From Rufibacter psychrotolerans (GTDB lineage Bacteria; Bacteroidota; Bacteroidia; Cytophagales; Hymenobacteraceae): a DNA stretch of 64,000 nucleotides. Shown here piece by piece: positions 9,128 through 58,956 of the stretch. Numbering within the stretch: position 1 is the first letter of the stretch; each line of letters starts with the position of its first letter. The stretch is taken from positions 1 through 64,000 of the forward strand of contig NZ_JAFFJV010000014.1 of the NCBI RefSeq assembly GCF_016924645.1, in the 5' to 3' direction. The notes beneath the pieces are model-generated. The model saw nothing but the letters and a program-made list of their open reading frames with translations, was not told the origin of the DNA and ran no database searches. A program made the translations under genes and the position numbers.

Positions 9128-9191
9128 AGCTGTCAGAAGTTGAGCTCCTTAGTGGGGTTCTCAGGATTACAGACCTTGTTTTAAAGAAACT

Positions 9192-9246
9192 GGCGCGAGT
9201 CTCCGGACTCGTGCCTCCAGATGCCGGGTAGTCCGGAGACTACCGG
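9192..9246. repeat. Two-hairpin palindromic element
   Basis: The first hairpin, GGCGCGAGTC-TCCG-GACTCGTGCC (9192-9215), belongs to the same family as hairpins at 53610 and 53801. The second, GGTAGTC-CGGA-GACTACC (9227-9244), has a loop complementary to the first, so 9198-9209 and 9230-9241 also form a 12-bp inverted repeat. The rest of the 9065-9339 gap holds the tandem repeat before it and a palindrome copy after it. Confidence 0.6.
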
Positions 9247-12477: not shown

Positions 12478-12560
12478 AGCAGAATTTGCGGAAGTTCACC
12501 ATCTTTTAGGCGCGGGTACGTATATTCGGACGTAACTCTGCAACGGAGGTCCGCAAATCT

Positions 12561-12597
12561 GTTTTGGGCCTGTTTTCCGTAAAACAACCCAGAAACG
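12561..12597. repeat. Dispersed 36-bp palindrome copy
   Basis: GTTTTGGGCCTGTTTTCC and AAAACAACCCAGAAAC, a near-consensus copy between the divergent ffh and glycosyltransferase genes. Confidence 0.75.
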
Positions 12598-12643
12598 GTT
12601 TCCGTTCGCTCCAGAAGATCTATTACCTGAACCAAAGAAGCTT

Positions 12644-13963: not shown

Positions 13964-13970
13964 CCGACCT

Positions 13971-14008
13971 GTTTAGGGGCCTTTTTCCCGAAATTGGCCC
14001 CTAAACAG
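13971..14008. repeat. Dispersed palindrome copy with 11-bp perfect arms
   Basis: GTTTAGGGGCC and GGCCCCTAAAC around CTTTTTCCCGAAATTG-type spacer sequence, starting eight bases after the glycosyltransferase stop. Confidence 0.8.
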
Positions 14009-24208: not shown

Positions 24209-24297
24209 TTCTAATTAGGAATTAGGAATTGAGAATTAGGAATGATGGTGTTCACTTCTAATTCTTAATTCCTAATTCTCAATTCACAATTAATTAC
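24209..24297. repeat. Inverted AATTAGGAATT-type repeat array
   Basis: AATTAGGAATTAGGAATTG units on the left and CTAATTCTTAATTCC units on the right around a GATGGTGTTCAC centre. It occupies the gap between the aldolase stop and the 67-residue gene and resembles the array at 18916-19039. Confidence 0.65.
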
Positions 24298-25239: not shown

Positions 25240-25343
25240 AAAAAAAAGCGGCAAACCGAGTATCGCGCCGCTCAACCACCTACCCTTGCTCCCTTCCGGG
25301 CCTGGGGGAGTTCAGTAGGAGCTGGCCGTACCGATTTGCCGTT
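25240..25343 (-). ncRNA. ffs: Signal recognition particle RNA (4.5S type)
   Basis: The minus strand carries the universally conserved SRP RNA apical domain: CCAGGCCCGGAAGGGAGCA, with the GGAA tetraloop and the asymmetric internal loop bound by Ffh. Outer strands CGGCAAATCGGTA and TACTCGGTTTGCCG pair to close a single long hairpin of about 95 bases. A run of eight U (plus-strand A at 25240-25247) ends the transcript. A good Bacteroidota promoter lies just upstream. It is the small, Alu-less bacterial form and partners the Ffh encoded at 11086-12423. Exact ends are estimated. Confidence 0.92.
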
Positions 25344-25344
25344 G

Positions 25345-25374
25345 CAAAGATACAAACACATTCTTTGGCTGCAA
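25345..25374 (-). promoter_or_regulatory. SRP RNA promoter (TTG-N19-TATCTTTG)
   Basis: On the minus strand a TTG at 25372-25374 is followed after 19 bases by TATCTTTG (25345-25352), a full match to the Bacteroidota primary sigma factor consensus. Confidence 0.75.
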
Positions 25375-31188: not shown

Positions 31189-31359
31189 TCACCTTACAAA
31201 TGGAAAAGCAGCCTCAAAACCCAAAGGCGGTTTTACGCTTGTATTCATTTGCATGGCTATGATCACTCTTCTTCCCACCTGAAGGTATAGTATTCCTTAG
31301 TCACGGAACGGATCAGAGGTTCAAACTAGATGTACTTTGCTGCTTTGTTGCGGATTTCT

Positions 31360-31395
31360 GTTTCAGGGCCTTTTTCCCTGAAACTGCCCTGAAAC
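31360..31395. repeat. Dispersed 36-bp palindrome copy
   Basis: GTTTCAGGGCCTTTTTCCC and GAAACTGCCCTGAAAC, between hemL and the permease gene. Confidence 0.75.
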
Positions 31396-31480
31396 AGGGG
31401 TACTAGCGGCAGTGCCTTTTACCGCCAACAGCACTCTTCCACGCTTTACGTATACACATCACGCACCCACCAATTGACCC

Positions 31481-39552: not shown

Positions 39553-40320
39553 TTATTTTTTAGGGGCTTTCTTCTGCTTCCATGCTTTGAAATGCCCTGC
39601 ACCTTTGGTCTTGGCGGTCTCGTTACTTCCTTCCTCAATGCCAGTGTCTGGGATGTGGTAAATGGTGTTGGGTTCGGCCACGGTGATGAAAGGCTGCTGG
39701 TTGAAAATAGTGCAAATCCTGAGCACGTCGCCGGTAGAGTTTTTATCGGCGCGCAGCACATGGATGTCCTCAGTGAAGGAGAAGACCAGCTTGGTCTTGG
39801 TTTGGGCCATGAGTTGTTCCAGTTGGGCAAAGGTTCCGCTGCCCTCGGTAGAAACCATGAACTCATTGGACAAGCCTACCCAGGGTTCTGTGGGGTCTGC
39901 CGAGGCAGATTCAAAGAACGGATAGGCGAACTGCACGGCCGGCTCCCGCTCCAGCTTCTCTAACAGCTTCTCCACCTCTTCACAGGTAGAGCCCGGGTAC
40001 AGGGCCACTCGGGTAATAAGGCCAGAATCCATGTAGACGTCCCCGTCTATGCTATGGAACTGGGGAAAACGGGCCAAGATGCGGTGCCGGTCCTCTGCTG
40101 ACAAACCCTCGGCAAACCCCACCAGAATCTTCTCCCCTCTCACAGCCCCAAATTGCACGGTACCGTAGACTTTGTTGAAGTAGGAGTAATTGCGGCAGTC
40201 TGCTACCCGGGCGTCTGACATGGAGGTCACTTCCCGGCTGGGCCTGGCCTCTTGCGTTTCACAAGAAAAAAGGAAAACAGAAAAAGCGGAAAGATAGAGA
40301 AATGGTAAGATCTGTTTCAT
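39553..40320 (-). CDS. Hypothetical lipoprotein
   Basis: A 255-residue protein with signal MKQILPFLYLSAFSVFLFSC, lipobox Cys20. The body has a repeated strand-helix layout (ILVGFAEGLSAEDRHRILARF, YPGSTCEEVEKLLEKLEREPAVQFAYPFF, then KLVFSFTEDIHVLRADKNST) reminiscent of inhibitor-I9 / subtilisin-propeptide-like alpha-beta folds, since the SAEDRHRIL...VQFAYPF pattern appears in such domains. The C-terminus is basic (HFKAWKQKKAPKK). No catalytic residues are apparent. A protease-propeptide-like role is only a hint. Confidence 0.7.
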   Translation of the reverse strand: MKQILPFLYLSAFSVFLFSCETQEARPSREVTSMSDARVADCRNYSYFNKVYGTVQFGAVRGEKILVGFAEGLSAEDRHRILARFPQFHSIDGDVYMDSGLITRVALYPGSTCEEVEKLLEKLEREPAVQFAYPFFESASADPTEPWVGLSNEFMVSTEGSGTFAQLEQLMAQTKTKLVFSFTEDIHVLRADKNSTGDVLRICTIFNQQPFITVAEPNTIYHIPDTGIEEGSNETAKTKGAGHFKAWKQKKAPKK

Positions 40321-40515
40321 AGCAACTAAGAATCATTAACAGGATGCTACTACTAATACGTCATTACCAGAAAAAAGAAATAAAAATATGACTAATTCTA
40401 CCGCTAACTTTTGCAACAAACACGCTTGCAACATTTTACCAGCTTCCAGCCTTATAGTAGAAATAGTTAACACGTGCCGCGAGTAGGACTTAAAGGGACT
40501 ACGCTTGCCCGCAAA

Positions 40516-40569
40516 GTTCACTGCCTTTTGGGCCTGTTTTCCGGAAAACAGGCCCAAAAGGCAGTGAAC
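40516..40569. repeat. Perfect 54-bp palindrome, best copy of the family
   Basis: Both 27-base arms match with no loop; the core left arm is TTTTGGGCCTGTTTTCC, flanked by GTTCACTGCC and GGCAGTGAAC. It lies in the 40321-40725 gap between the lipoprotein promoter region and the amidohydrolase stop. The rest of that gap shows nothing recognisable. Confidence 0.95.
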
Positions 40570-40725
40570 AACAAACCAAGCAATGGCAGTAGCTTATGGG
40601 ATCATGAATCGTACCCAGGGCACGCCGCTTCCCTCCCGTTAAGTATGGCCAGCTTAAATTGTGTCTTCCCTCTTCAGGATGGATTGTTAACGGCCAGTTC
40701 TCTATTTTTCCCAGTCCCTGGCCGC

Positions 40726-42273
40726 TTAGAATTTCCTCAGCACTTTCCCGTTCTTCTGCACCAAGCGGCCGTTCTCTACGCTCACCTTCCCGTTGACCAA
40801 CACGGTCTCAAAGCCGGTGGCCAGCTGAAACGGATTTTCATACGTGGTGGTCTCGTGCACCTGGGCAGGGTCAAACACCAGCAGATCGGCTTTCTTGCCC
40901 ACGGCGATCTCTCCGCGGTCTGCAAGGCCCATGGTGCGGGCAGAAAGGGAGGTCATCTTCCGGATGGCTTCCTCCAGGGAGAGCTGTTTGGTCCTGACCA
41001 CGTACGCTTCCAGGATGCGGGCGAAAGAGCCGTAGCCCCGGGGGTGCCGCATGTCTGGGCCGCCGTCTGAGCAGATCATCACCGTGGGGTCTACGATAAA
41101 GCGGGCCTGCAGTGCCTCGTCCATCACAAAATAAGCCGCGGAGGCCCCTCCCGGCCCGATGTCTTCCAGCAGCACCTCCTCAAAGGGCTTCTGCTTTTCC
41201 TGGGCCAGTTGCGCCAGGGTTTTGCCGGCAAAGGGAGCGGTGCCCAGCAGAGTGGCCTGCGGCCCGTTGCGCTTGTTCACCCTGTTGCGGAGGTACTCCA
41301 ACAGTTCCTGGCGGCGGGTGGCCACTACCTGCTCGTAAGAATGAGGCGGCAGCGCCCACTCCGGGAACAGGATACTGATGCCGGTGAAGCTGGCAGTGTA
41401 AGGATACACATCGGCGGTGACCCGGATGCCCCGCTGGCGGGCCTGCTCCAACTGGTCCAGGATCTGCTCGGCGCGAGCCTTGCCCTTCCCAAACACCACC
41501 TTGAGGTGAGACACGTGCACGGGGCAGTGCTTCCCCTGCAGCAACAGCTCGTTCAAGGAGGCTTCAATGGCCTGGTCGTCTTCGTTGCGCACGTGGCTGG
41601 TGATTAACTTGCCCTTAGCTCCCACCTCTTTGGCCAGGTACTCTAATTCATACGGGGGCGCGTAGAACCCGGGCAGGTACTCCAACCCGGTAGACAGGCC
41701 CAGACAGCCCAGGTCCAGCTTCTCCCGCAGCAGCTGGCCCATTTTCTCTAGTTGGGCCTGGGTGGGCAAAGAGTCATAGTTGAGGCCCGCCTCCTGGCGC
41801 AGGGTGCCGTGGCCCACAAACAGGGCAATGTTCACCTCACTGCCGGCCTGGTCTACCCGTTGCATCCAGCTTTGCAGGTTCTGGGGGTGCGCTCCGTCGT
41901 TGCCCAGCGTGACGGTGGTGGCGCCCTGGGCCAGGAAGTTCAGGAAACCTCTTTCGCCCAGTGGGTCGCCGTGCGCGTGGGTATCAATGAAGCCGGGCGA
42001 AACCACCTTGCCCCGGGCGTCAATGGTTTTCTGTACCTGCACCAGGCGGGGGTCTACCTCGCCCACAAAGGCAATGGTATCGTGCCGGATGAGCACATCG
42101 GCGGCGAAGGCTTTCTGACCGGTGCCGTCAATGACCTGTCCGTCCAGGAGCAACACGTCAAAGGTGTTTTGGGGCTGTTTTGCCAGAAACCGCCCAAAAT
42201 CGCGGGTGGCCTTGGGGGCGCAGCCGGTAACCAGTGAAAAGAGGGCAAGGGCAAGGGTGGGCAGCGGGCGCAT
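40726..42273 (-). CDS. N-acyl-D-amino-acid deacylase family amidohydrolase lipoprotein
   Basis: A 515-residue exported metal-dependent amidohydrolase. MRPLPTLALALFSLVTGC is a signal with lipobox Cys18. The domain begins FDVLLLDGQVIDGTGQKAFAADV, with the metal motif PGFIDTHAHGD, later TLGNDGAHP, LSTGLEYLPGFYA, SHVRNEDD, VHVSHLKV, RVTADVYPYTAS and the catalytic Asp region ICSDGGPDMRHPRGYGSFARIL. These match D-aminoacylases and related dipeptidases, so it may trim N-acyl-D-amino acids or peptidoglycan-derived compounds. The ATG at 42273 is chosen because it begins the lipoprotein signal. The linker ATRDFGRFLAKQPQNTF is encoded by a copy of the dispersed palindrome. Confidence 0.87.
   Translation of the reverse strand: MRPLPTLALALFSLVTGCAPKATRDFGRFLAKQPQNTFDVLLLDGQVIDGTGQKAFAADVLIRHDTIAFVGEVDPRLVQVQKTIDARGKVVSPGFIDTHAHGDPLGERGFLNFLAQGATTVTLGNDGAHPQNLQSWMQRVDQAGSEVNIALFVGHGTLRQEAGLNYDSLPTQAQLEKMGQLLREKLDLGCLGLSTGLEYLPGFYAPPYELEYLAKEVGAKGKLITSHVRNEDDQAIEASLNELLLQGKHCPVHVSHLKVVFGKGKARAEQILDQLEQARQRGIRVTADVYPYTASFTGISILFPEWALPPHSYEQVVATRRQELLEYLRNRVNKRNGPQATLLGTAPFAGKTLAQLAQEKQKPFEEVLLEDIGPGGASAAYFVMDEALQARFIVDPTVMICSDGGPDMRHPRGYGSFARILEAYVVRTKQLSLEEAIRKMTSLSARTMGLADRGEIAVGKKADLLVFDPAQVHETTTYENPFQLATGFETVLVNGKVSVENGRLVQKNGKVLRKF
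42166..42201. repeat. Dispersed palindrome, coding copy in amidohydrolase
   Basis: GTTTTGGGGCTGTTTTGCC and AGAAACCGCCCAAAATC. It is translated on the minus strand as DFGRFLAKQPQN, exactly between the lipidated cysteine and the first domain strand. Confidence 0.75.
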
Positions 42274-42370
42274 AACGATGGGGTTGGGGCAAGAGATGGG
42301 CTGTAAATTACAAATTGCCCCGGCTCCCGCCAAGCCTCCCTGCCGCTACTTTTCCATAGAGTGGCCGCTT

Positions 42371-43134: not shown

Positions 43135-43164
43135 ACGGCTGCTCCCCTTGCCGAGGTTATAAAC

Positions 43165-43200
43165 GTTTAGGGCCTGTTTTTGAAGAAACAGGCCCTAACT
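43165..43200. repeat. Dispersed palindrome copy with 13-bp perfect arms
   Basis: TTAGGGCCTGTTT and AAACAGGCCCTAA around TTGAAG; it lies between convergent genes and ends three bases before the menE stop codon. It could also end transcription in both directions. Confidence 0.85.
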
Positions 43201-43202
43201 GT

Positions 43203-44333
43203 TTACAGCAGGCTCATTCCCGCGCGCCGGTTGATCTTGCCGGTGGCGGTTTCAGGAAGGCGGGGCAAGTACCCGAACCGCTTGGGGATTTCGTATTTAG
43301 CGAGCGTTTCGCTCAATTTTCCTTTCAGGTTGGTTTCCTCCAGATCGGTGAGGGGGCTGCCTTCCAGCACGGCGATGAGGCGTTCGCCCAGGGACTCGTC
43401 GGGCAGTGCGGCGGCAAAGTAGCGGCGTGTGATGCCCAGGGCCGCCAGCGCCTCGCCCAAGGCCGTCTCTACCTTCTCCAGCTGCACCTTCACTCCTCCC
43501 GAGTTGATGGTGTTGTCGGCCCGGCCCAGCCAGCGGAAGGAGTTATTGCCCAGCAGTTCCACCAGGTCGTTGGTGACCAGCGTTTCGCCGCCCGTCACGT
43601 CCGCGGCAATGGTGAGGCAGCCCCGCTCGTCTTGGCCCAGGGTCACCTCGGGCGGCGCGGTATAGTACTCTTGTTTCTCGGCTCCGTTGAGGCGGCGCAC
43701 CGCCACGTGCGAAATAGTCTCGGTCATGCCGTAGCTCTGGTACACGGGCACCTCCAGCTCCTGCACGGCTTCTTCCAGGCCCTTGCTCACCGCGGCCCCG
43801 CCCAGCAGAATGGCTTTCATGCGGTTCAGCTTGCCCTTTTTCTCCGGTGTCTGCTCCAGAATGGTCTGTAGTTGCAGGGGCACCATGGCAATGAAATCAA
43901 ACTCGGCGTCTGGGTCTACGCTGGCCAGCGGATTGCCGATGGGCTCCACTATGGTCAGGTGCAGGTTACCCACCAGGCCGCGCACCAGCATCATCAGGCC
44001 GGCAATGTACTCGGTGTTCATGCACACCAGCACGCGGTCTTCGGGTTGCAGGTTGAAAAGGCGCAGGGTGCGTCTGGCGCTGGCCTCCATCCTTTCCCTG
44101 GACAGTTCTATGAGCTTGGGGGTGCCGGTACTGCCCGAGGTCTGCACCGGAAACTCCTGCACGCCCTGTAACCAGTTTTTGCAGAACTCTAGCGTTTTGG
44201 CCTCATACCCGTCAATGGGAATGCTTTCCCGGAAGGAGTAATGCTGGATTTCATCTAGGAAGAACTTTTTACCGTTCAGGAGCAGGTGGTCGGGCATGGG
44301 ATTGGGTAGCACGTAGTGCGTATCAGGTATCAC
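43203..44333 (-). CDS. menE: o-Succinylbenzoate-CoA ligase
   Basis: A 376-residue adenylate-forming enzyme, compact like Bacteroidota MenE. The AMP-binding P-loop is VQTSGSTGTPK, followed by ILLGGAAVSKG, QSYGMTETISHVAVR, FRWLGRADNTINSGGVKVQLEKVE and the C-terminal lysine in ATGKINRRAG. It activates o-succinylbenzoate for MenB. The gene lies 180 bases downstream of menB on the same strand, though a terminator-like hairpin intervenes. An ATG 12 codons inside (44297) is an alternative start. Confidence 0.88.
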   Translation of the reverse strand: MIPDTHYVLPNPMPDHLLLNGKKFFLDEIQHYSFRESIPIDGYEAKTLEFCKNWLQGVQEFPVQTSGSTGTPKLIELSRERMEASARRTLRLFNLQPEDRVLVCMNTEYIAGLMMLVRGLVGNLHLTIVEPIGNPLASVDPDAEFDFIAMVPLQLQTILEQTPEKKGKLNRMKAILLGGAAVSKGLEEAVQELEVPVYQSYGMTETISHVAVRRLNGAEKQEYYTAPPEVTLGQDERGCLTIAADVTGGETLVTNDLVELLGNNSFRWLGRADNTINSGGVKVQLEKVETALGEALAALGITRRYFAAALPDESLGERLIAVLEGSPLTDLEETNLKGKLSETLAKYEIPKRFGYLPRLPETATGKINRRAGMSLL

Positions 44334-53399: not shown

Positions 53400-53463
53400 C
53401 TATGGCGCGGATTTACTTCTGTGACTTACATTCTAAAGGCACGGAAGTAAATCCGCGCCATAG
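53400..53463. repeat. 20-bp perfect inverted repeat
   Basis: CTATGGCGCGGATTTACTTC (53400-53419) and its exact inverse complement (53444-53463) around a 24-base loop. Pairing continues for about four more bases with one wobble. A fragment CTATGGCGCATATTT recurs at 53662-53676. Confidence 0.9.
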
Positions 53464-53703: not shown

Positions 53704-53824
53704 TATGGTTCAAGTCTATGACTTGGACCTATCATGAGGGCTGTTCGCAACTGCCGTAAGACGAATACATCAACAGAAATCCAAGCACAACAAATCCGCT
53801 GGCGCGAGCGTCCCGCTCGTGTCC
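53704..53824. repeat. Three-hairpin module, copy 2
   Basis: Hairpin A: TATGGTTCAAGTC..GACTTGGACC (53704-53737). Hairpin B: GGCTGTTCGCAACTGCC (53739-53755). Hairpin C: GGCGCGAGCG-TCC-CGCTCGTGTC (53801-53823). Loop bases differ from copy 1 and stem changes are partly compensated. A partial hairpin A (TATGGTTCAAG) precedes it at 53686-53696. Confidence 0.75.
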
Positions 53825-54015
53825 GCACGCATTGCCGAACTTCTGCCAACTGTCCAAGTGCTTCAGCATCACTTCCACTTCTTACCACTCAACCCTACTG
53901 AAACAAGCCTATTTTTTGTATGTGATGTACCGAAGCCAAGTACCTTCTTTTCAACCCGTTTATCAGAATACAGGCAAAAAACGGAGTTCCGACAATACCA
54001 CAAGGGGTAAAACAA

Positions 54016-58892: not shown

Positions 58893-58956
58893 AAGCCTTG
58901 GCCCGATTCAGGGGTGTTTCCCGCAAAACACCCCCGAATCGGGCCAAGGCTTTTCA
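58893..58956 (+). terminator. 27-bp stem hairpin overlapping a repeat copy
   Basis: AAGCCTTGGCCCGATTC with GGGGTGTTT pair with AAACACCCC and GAATCGGGCCAAGGCTT; one mismatch, tip CCCGCA, then TTTTC. It probably ends transcription of the DUF4136 gene. Confidence 0.8.
58905..58940. repeat. Dispersed palindrome copy within the terminator
   Basis: GATTCAGGGGTGTTTCCC and AAAACACCCCCGAATC, the inner part of the hairpin just described. Confidence 0.65.

Follow-up and report, generated by a model that had tools for sequence, protein, structure and literature searches.

Between two genes of Rufibacter psychrotolerans, in the 64,000-nucleotide stretch of DNA analysed here (the window), lies a perfect palindrome of 54 bp. 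Is it a young copy of a mobile repeat, as the original prediction supposed, or a structure of another kind? The palindrome that was described, without mismatch or loop, was confirmed: positions 40516-40569 are their own reverse complement, with 27-base arms, 0 mismatches and a spacer of 0, whereas the longest arms in five simulated first-order Markov sequences of the window's length (spacer of up to 20) were 10, 10, 11, 10 and 11 bases. In E. coli, it is palindromes several times as long as this one that cause severe trouble. The locus comprises the following features.

40516-40569, no strand assigned: perfect 54-bp palindrome with 27-base arms and without a loop
40526-40559, no strand assigned: core common to the Rufibacter hairpin family (covariance-model match of 62.2 bits at 40522-40563)
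40516-40525, no strand assigned: left outer arm GTTCACTGCC, unique to this copy
40560-40569, no strand assigned: right outer arm GGCAGTGAAC, unique to this copy
40726-42333, minus strand: amidohydrolase gene preceding the hairpin (the longest open reading frame; our script's start is at 42273; PF07969 and PF01979)
39553-40320, minus strand: lipoprotein-like gene following the hairpin (without a Pfam match)

The product of the gene at 39553-40320 is predicted to be a lipoprotein from its N-terminus. The palindrome lies 156 nt past the amidohydrolase stop codon, and both flanking genes are on the minus strand. Among 187 palindromes in an 862-kb sample of the 5.18-Mb genome (the window and 40 stretches chosen round known copies of the repeat), it is the longest that is both perfect and loopless; the runner-up, with 23-bp arms, falls outside the hairpin family. 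Its RNA fold, computed with 10 flanking bases at either end, reaches -46.1 kcal/mol (z = -8.5). The core reads TTTTGGGCCTGTTTTC/GAAAACAGGCCCAAAA, and an exact match to it occurs nowhere else in the genome. A 26-mer taken from it occurs at 9 other genome places at a difference of 1 base and, with up to 3 mismatches, at 30 places in this genome against 0 for the reversed control, and in 15 of the 16 genomes of the genus.

The outer arms behave differently from what had been proposed, namely that they extend the family consensus and that this copy may show the full-length element. A whole-genome search with GTTCACTGCC joined to the core (up to 2 mismatches) found no place besides 40516-40569, and GTTCACTGCCTTTTGGGCC with up to 3 mismatches found, besides the palindrome's own two arms, two further places, both with 3 mismatches; its reversed control found one. 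A weak BLAST match at C22:95487-95540 (80%) spans the left outer arm. Because the outer arms are particular to 40516-40569, this copy displays no full-length element. The interval 40330-40725 contains no larger repeat, and its matches elsewhere in the genome concern the palindrome region only. Rfam models run against the window gave no match at the hairpins, their sole match being a small SRP RNA gene (RF04183) at 25245-25348 on the minus strand.

The family to which the palindrome's inner 34 bases belong has the consensus nCnGTTTnGGGCCTGTTTTnnnGAAAACAGGCCCnAAACGGn, drawn from 81 copies in four genomes, and a covariance model of the family was built from these copies. For the genus and the taxonomic family the model was applied with strict filters, and per-genome counts that reach 54 stand for at least 54. 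It detects the family in 16 of 16 Rufibacter genomes. Outside the genus the signal is weak: 6 of the 104 remaining genomes of the taxonomic family have 1-6 matches each, and among 58 other genomes sampled from the order a single one gave one match. Judged by these sequences, the hairpin family is almost confined to the genus Rufibacter. It appears undescribed in the titles and abstract openings of the literature on Rufibacter and palindromes and on Bacteroidetes and palindromic repeats. The 440 model matches at E ≤ 1 in the 862-kb sample (both strands counted) grade from perfect to badly decayed. All other copies had been thought degenerate, which is true of the window's other three palindromes of this type, all mismatched, but not of the sample: perfect arms are present in 25 of 64 family palindromes (this copy included) that pass a filter drawn up after the sequences had been seen and missing some members. 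Arms of at least 20 bp are found in 11 of the 25; in the same sample, three family members have longer arms than the 40516 copy (35, 31 and 29 bp) and one more reaches 27 bp. The further copies in the window, none with a strand assigned, are as follows.

13969-14008: diverged copy, 5 nt past a stop codon, at a site common to G002, G006 and R. ruber
43160-43205: diverged copy between convergent genes
58893-58952: diverged copy with long outer arms, 22 nt past a stop codon
56099-56151: weaker copy, model match
31357-31398: weaker copy, model match
12558-12599: weaker copy, model match

Arms identical to the consensus (one position being G or C) number 79 in R. ruber (taken to be G010, whose interval between the two genes is that of the R. 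ruber record, a relative with 73% protein identity in the best segment), 24 in G005 and 0-5 in each of the other 14 genomes. The 24 copies in G005 carry 19 different loops, a diversity that fits a constrained stem better than fresh copying. Of the 47 copies listed for R. ruber (of 79), 25 have one of just two loops, which leaves room for some recent copying. The half motif GGCCTGTTTT occurs 100 times in intergenic and 5 times in coding sequence of the 862-kb sample. At L044 9998-10048, GGTTTTGGGCCTGTTTTC stands directly before an intact family palindrome, a half-arm duplication that looks as if an arm had been copied in tandem.

Other repeats were seen alongside the family. A second palindromic family, with arms like TATGGCGCGGATTTACTTCCGTGACTT, is present at 53400-53463 of the window and at L045, L063, L066, L069, L074 and L077, with a variant in G005 (L080). 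An inverted A+T-rich repeat of AATTAGGAATT-like units occupies 24213-24291 of the window, and a similar one exists in G006. Also in G006, a hairpin with 37-bp arms and a different sequence (L153 1703-1779, g6b 101703-101779) lies in an interval that exceeds its G002 counterpart by about 200 bp.

What the family copies have in common, besides the stem, is their position at gene ends. Genes were called with a purpose-written hexamer script; 7 copies at the ends of stretches, and those farther than 120 or 150 nt from a stop codon, were left out of the placement, T-tract and wobble counts. In tandem gene pairs from four genomes, the upstream gene's stop codon is the nearer one for 76 of 84 copies (P = 5e-15), at a median distance of 23-36 nt. 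Convergent regions hold 49 of 140 copies against 14% of intergenic bases (P = 4e-10), while divergent regions hold 7 of 140 against 25% (P = 8e-10). We also compared the family with other hairpins (A-outer and unclassified) in intervals of 60-600 bp. Of the convergent intervals, 10 contain both kinds, 32 the family only, 89 other hairpins only and 33 neither (odds ratio 0.12, P = 3e-8); the corresponding tandem counts are 5, 61, 102 and 471 (odds ratio 0.38, P = 0.04). Family hairpins take the place of other gene-end hairpins.

The features of the transcript strand are less uniform. A T-tract is present on this strand in 35 of 74 family copies and on the opposite strand in 19 of 74 (P = 0.01), the oriented copies in this count all lying within 120 nt of the stop codon, unlike the 40516 copy at 156 nt; a clear T-tract is present in 64 of 71 A-outer hairpins. 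G-U wobbles and A-C mismatches stand at 25:18 in the family (P = 0.36), so that selection on the RNA strand is not demonstrated, against 34:14 in A-outer (P = 0.006) and 22:7 in unclassified hairpins. The terminator reading of the family is therefore supported by its position and by its exclusion of other gene-end hairpins. It is weaker for the 40516 copy, since only TTT follows the stem on the transcript strand, where the sequence is TTTGCGGG, and a terminator scan of the interval found no canonical intrinsic terminator. Like intrinsic terminators, the family hairpins are strong GC-rich stem-loops tens of bases past a stop codon that avoid divergent promoters, and many copies are T-rich at the end. 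The stable hairpin shortly past the stop codon is in place, with the fold and median distance given above, although the 40516 copy lies 156 nt away, and at this copy the T-tract directly past the stem is missing. The family further differs from intrinsic terminators in that its stem sequence is conserved and T runs lie inside the 5' arm, and in having a clear T-tract in only the 35 of 74. These are genus-specific, sequence-conserved gene-end hairpins that are terminator-like by placement, the 40516 copy having failed the T-tract test.

Several known systems resemble the family in part. REP elements tagged GTAG or CGTC are short, high-copy extragenic palindromes that are shared and decayed in relatives, as passages of PMC3733652 describe them. 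The Rufibacter family has these properties, too, but in addition its outer arms are copy-specific and complementary, a difference from REPs as those passages portray them. GTAG and CGTC tags occur in 4 and 2 of 147 family palindromes, not above the chance level of 7% given by a rough formula, and identity with these REPs was rejected on this count. The genome carries two Y1_Tnp genes, each amid other repeat families. A RAYT/REP origin is not favoured by the position of these genes among other repeats or by the lack of a tag excess; given two family-type palindromes behind one of the genes, a tie of the family to the genome's Y1 transposases is possible. Behind one Y1 transposase gene, L100 2452-2611 is a repeat of some 160 bp that carries a family palindrome and recurs at 93-98% identity at L048, L050 and L068. 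The window itself has short matches, at 53791-53844 (L100) and 9187-9244 (L101), to repeats round Y1 (RAYT-like) transposase genes.

A DNA uptake sequence is a single motif that is spread through coding sequence too. Spread of such motifs into coding sequence is suggested in part of PMC2346458. In Neisseria, inverted DNA uptake sequences act as terminators, according to passages of PMC2397512, and the Rufibacter family is like them, as described there, in being a genus-specific sequence that forms an inverted pair at gene ends. It differs in that its half motif is almost only intergenic, and with GGCCTGTTTT at 5 coding against 100 intergenic places, identity with an uptake motif was rejected.

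Does the perfection of the arms date an insertion? We compared G002 and G006, which align at 86% identity, over 600 kb of each. The set holds 226 family sites, both genomes' sites being counted and many sites therefore entering from both; 175 could be anchored and 51 could not. At 171 of the 175, aligned sequence with fewer than 10 gap columns is found at the site, and, as the alignment is forced, such shared sites can include very degenerate ones. The remaining sites have 13, 15, 38 and 42 gap columns. One is a clean presence/absence of 38 bp with matching flanks, close behind a stop codon, which shows that family copies do come or go; the 42-column case failed the flank test. A scan for long gaps between the two genomes gave 40 runs of 22-110 bases, of which 2 passed a palindrome/motif filter and neither was a family insertion; it missed the clean 38-bp case. 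A smaller count covered 41 anchored G002 sites; 28 of them had a model match in G006, and the pairs had 80% of bases in common against 65% for random pairs. Five consensus-armed R. ruber copies were also compared with the same surroundings in G000, G002 or G006. At L164, L169, L170 and L173 a diverged family member occupies the site in the compared species (by model or palindrome search), and at L178 a decayed member was recognised by eye only. Consensus-armed copies at such old common sites indicate that arm perfection does not date insertion.

The arms change together. Between G002 and G006 we counted 39 double Watson-Crick paired changes in 28 G002 hairpins and 39 in 20 G006 hairpins; the slid controls gave 8 and 0. 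Changes on one side only that produced a mismatch numbered 73 and 28. The covariation argument rests on this comparison, because an earlier covariation set had been selected as palindromes. In R. ruber, 21 consensus-armed copies, whose loops are an unfair sample because the copies were picked by high model scores, continue to pair outward over 1-14 bases. T predominates at the first three outer positions. At positions 4 and 5 no base exceeds a frequency of one third among the arms, but 13 of 21 copies pair there (P = 4e-4, with one quarter expected), and pairing falls to about chance by the ninth position. Outer arms specific to the single copy are a trait of the family.

At the locus itself, the gene pair is retained in four relatives (G004, G007, G009 and G010), where the protein matches lie 135-245 bp apart and a family hairpin is lacking; in the window genome they are 408 bp apart. 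The comparison of orthologous intervals that had been suggested thus shows the hairpin to be absent from the four, but their intervals cannot be aligned with the palindrome-bearing part, and neither an empty site nor a target duplication is demonstrable in them. The gene pair was not seen in the other 11 genomes of the genus, which are silent on the site for that reason. The proposal that this may be the most recent insertion mostly fails: perfect arms do not mark the newest insertion, being found at old common sites. The four relatives do make a gain in the window's lineage possible. The hairpin may have been gained there or lost in the other lineages, and the sequence is compatible with either route.

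On balance, we regard it as slightly more probable than not that 40516-40569 belongs to a Rufibacter-specific family of gene-end hairpins that replaces ordinary intrinsic terminators, its arms matched by template switching. The stem would fold in the minus-strand transcript of the amidohydrolase gene in front of it, and the folded stem would end or protect that transcript, which the hairpin may in this way separate from the lipoprotein gene behind. The inner stem sequence is common across the genome, and the outer arms are peculiar to each site but kept complementary, most likely by stalled DNA synthesis that copies one arm onto the other (quasipalindrome template switching), with selection retaining the hairpin. 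The perfect arm match at 40516-40569 probably arose by template switching at an imperfect palindrome. Template switching perfects quasipalindromes in E. coli, in the portion of PMC7202029 that bears on this, and has been proposed as creator and keeper of RNA stems in parts of PMC8794818 and PMC8604942. As these sources present it in part, the process perfects arms, makes multi-base paired changes as seen here and can invert loops; it is a mutation process rather than an element, and one that we infer for the Rufibacter family. A search for one-flank copying of outer arms (of 39 hairpins scored, 29 had 4 or more outer pairs) gave no clear one-sided signature, the largest difference being 0.33; as no single event was pinned down in it, template switching is proposed rather than observed. 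The one-sided changes to mismatch, common between G002 and G006, also count against this explanation, as does the half of the counted family copies without a clear T-tract, compared with 7 of 71 A-outer hairpins. An unlikely variant is a factor-dependent hairpin class ending many Rufibacter genes, in which a dedicated protein would read the stem, with arms kept to a genome-specific consensus, a free loop, matched outer drift and new or repaired sites arising by template switching, not transposition.

Other readings have to be set beside the gene-end hairpin with matched arms. That the palindrome is a miniature mobile REP-like repeat that inserts at gene ends, the perfect copy being recent and any hairpin function incidental, seems to us somewhat unlikely. 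Such a repeat is consistent with a high-copy, genus-restricted family graded from perfect to decayed, with the 79 consensus-armed R. ruber places and the two loops that dominate those listed, with the clean 38-bp difference between G002 and G006, with the absence of the hairpin from four relatives that have the gene pair, and with two family-type palindromes that follow one of the Y1 transposase genes at 230 and 515 bp, one of them within the repeat of some 160 bp. Yet of the 175 anchored sites 171 do not qualify as clean insertions, R. ruber copies with consensus arms are found where other species have the site occupied too, the outer arms vary from copy to copy, 19 loops occur among the 24 G005 copies and neither GTAG nor CGTC is in excess.

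A target, at the level of DNA, of a DNA-binding or chromosome-organising protein, tolerated at gene ends, is quite improbable. The conserved stem with its free loop and the lack of a significant G-U over A-C bias would suit it, but bases change in matched pairs between species, which a protein reading the sequence would not need, and the exclusion of other gene-end hairpins together with the one-sided T-tract points to transcription. An assembly artefact by inverted collapse, which the division of the assembly into 35 contigs might bring to mind, is very improbable indeed: unique non-palindromic sequence flanks 40516-40569 on both sides, and many perfect family palindromes exist elsewhere and in other genomes, of which G005 is a single contig.

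A perfect palindrome in a bacterium thus need not be a young mobile copy, and the counts given here speak against that tempting inference. The gene-end hairpins of this one genus constitute a natural experiment on how stems stay paired, by template switching or by selection. The family also bears on whether a genus can swap its ordinary terminators for a sequence-specific class of hairpins.
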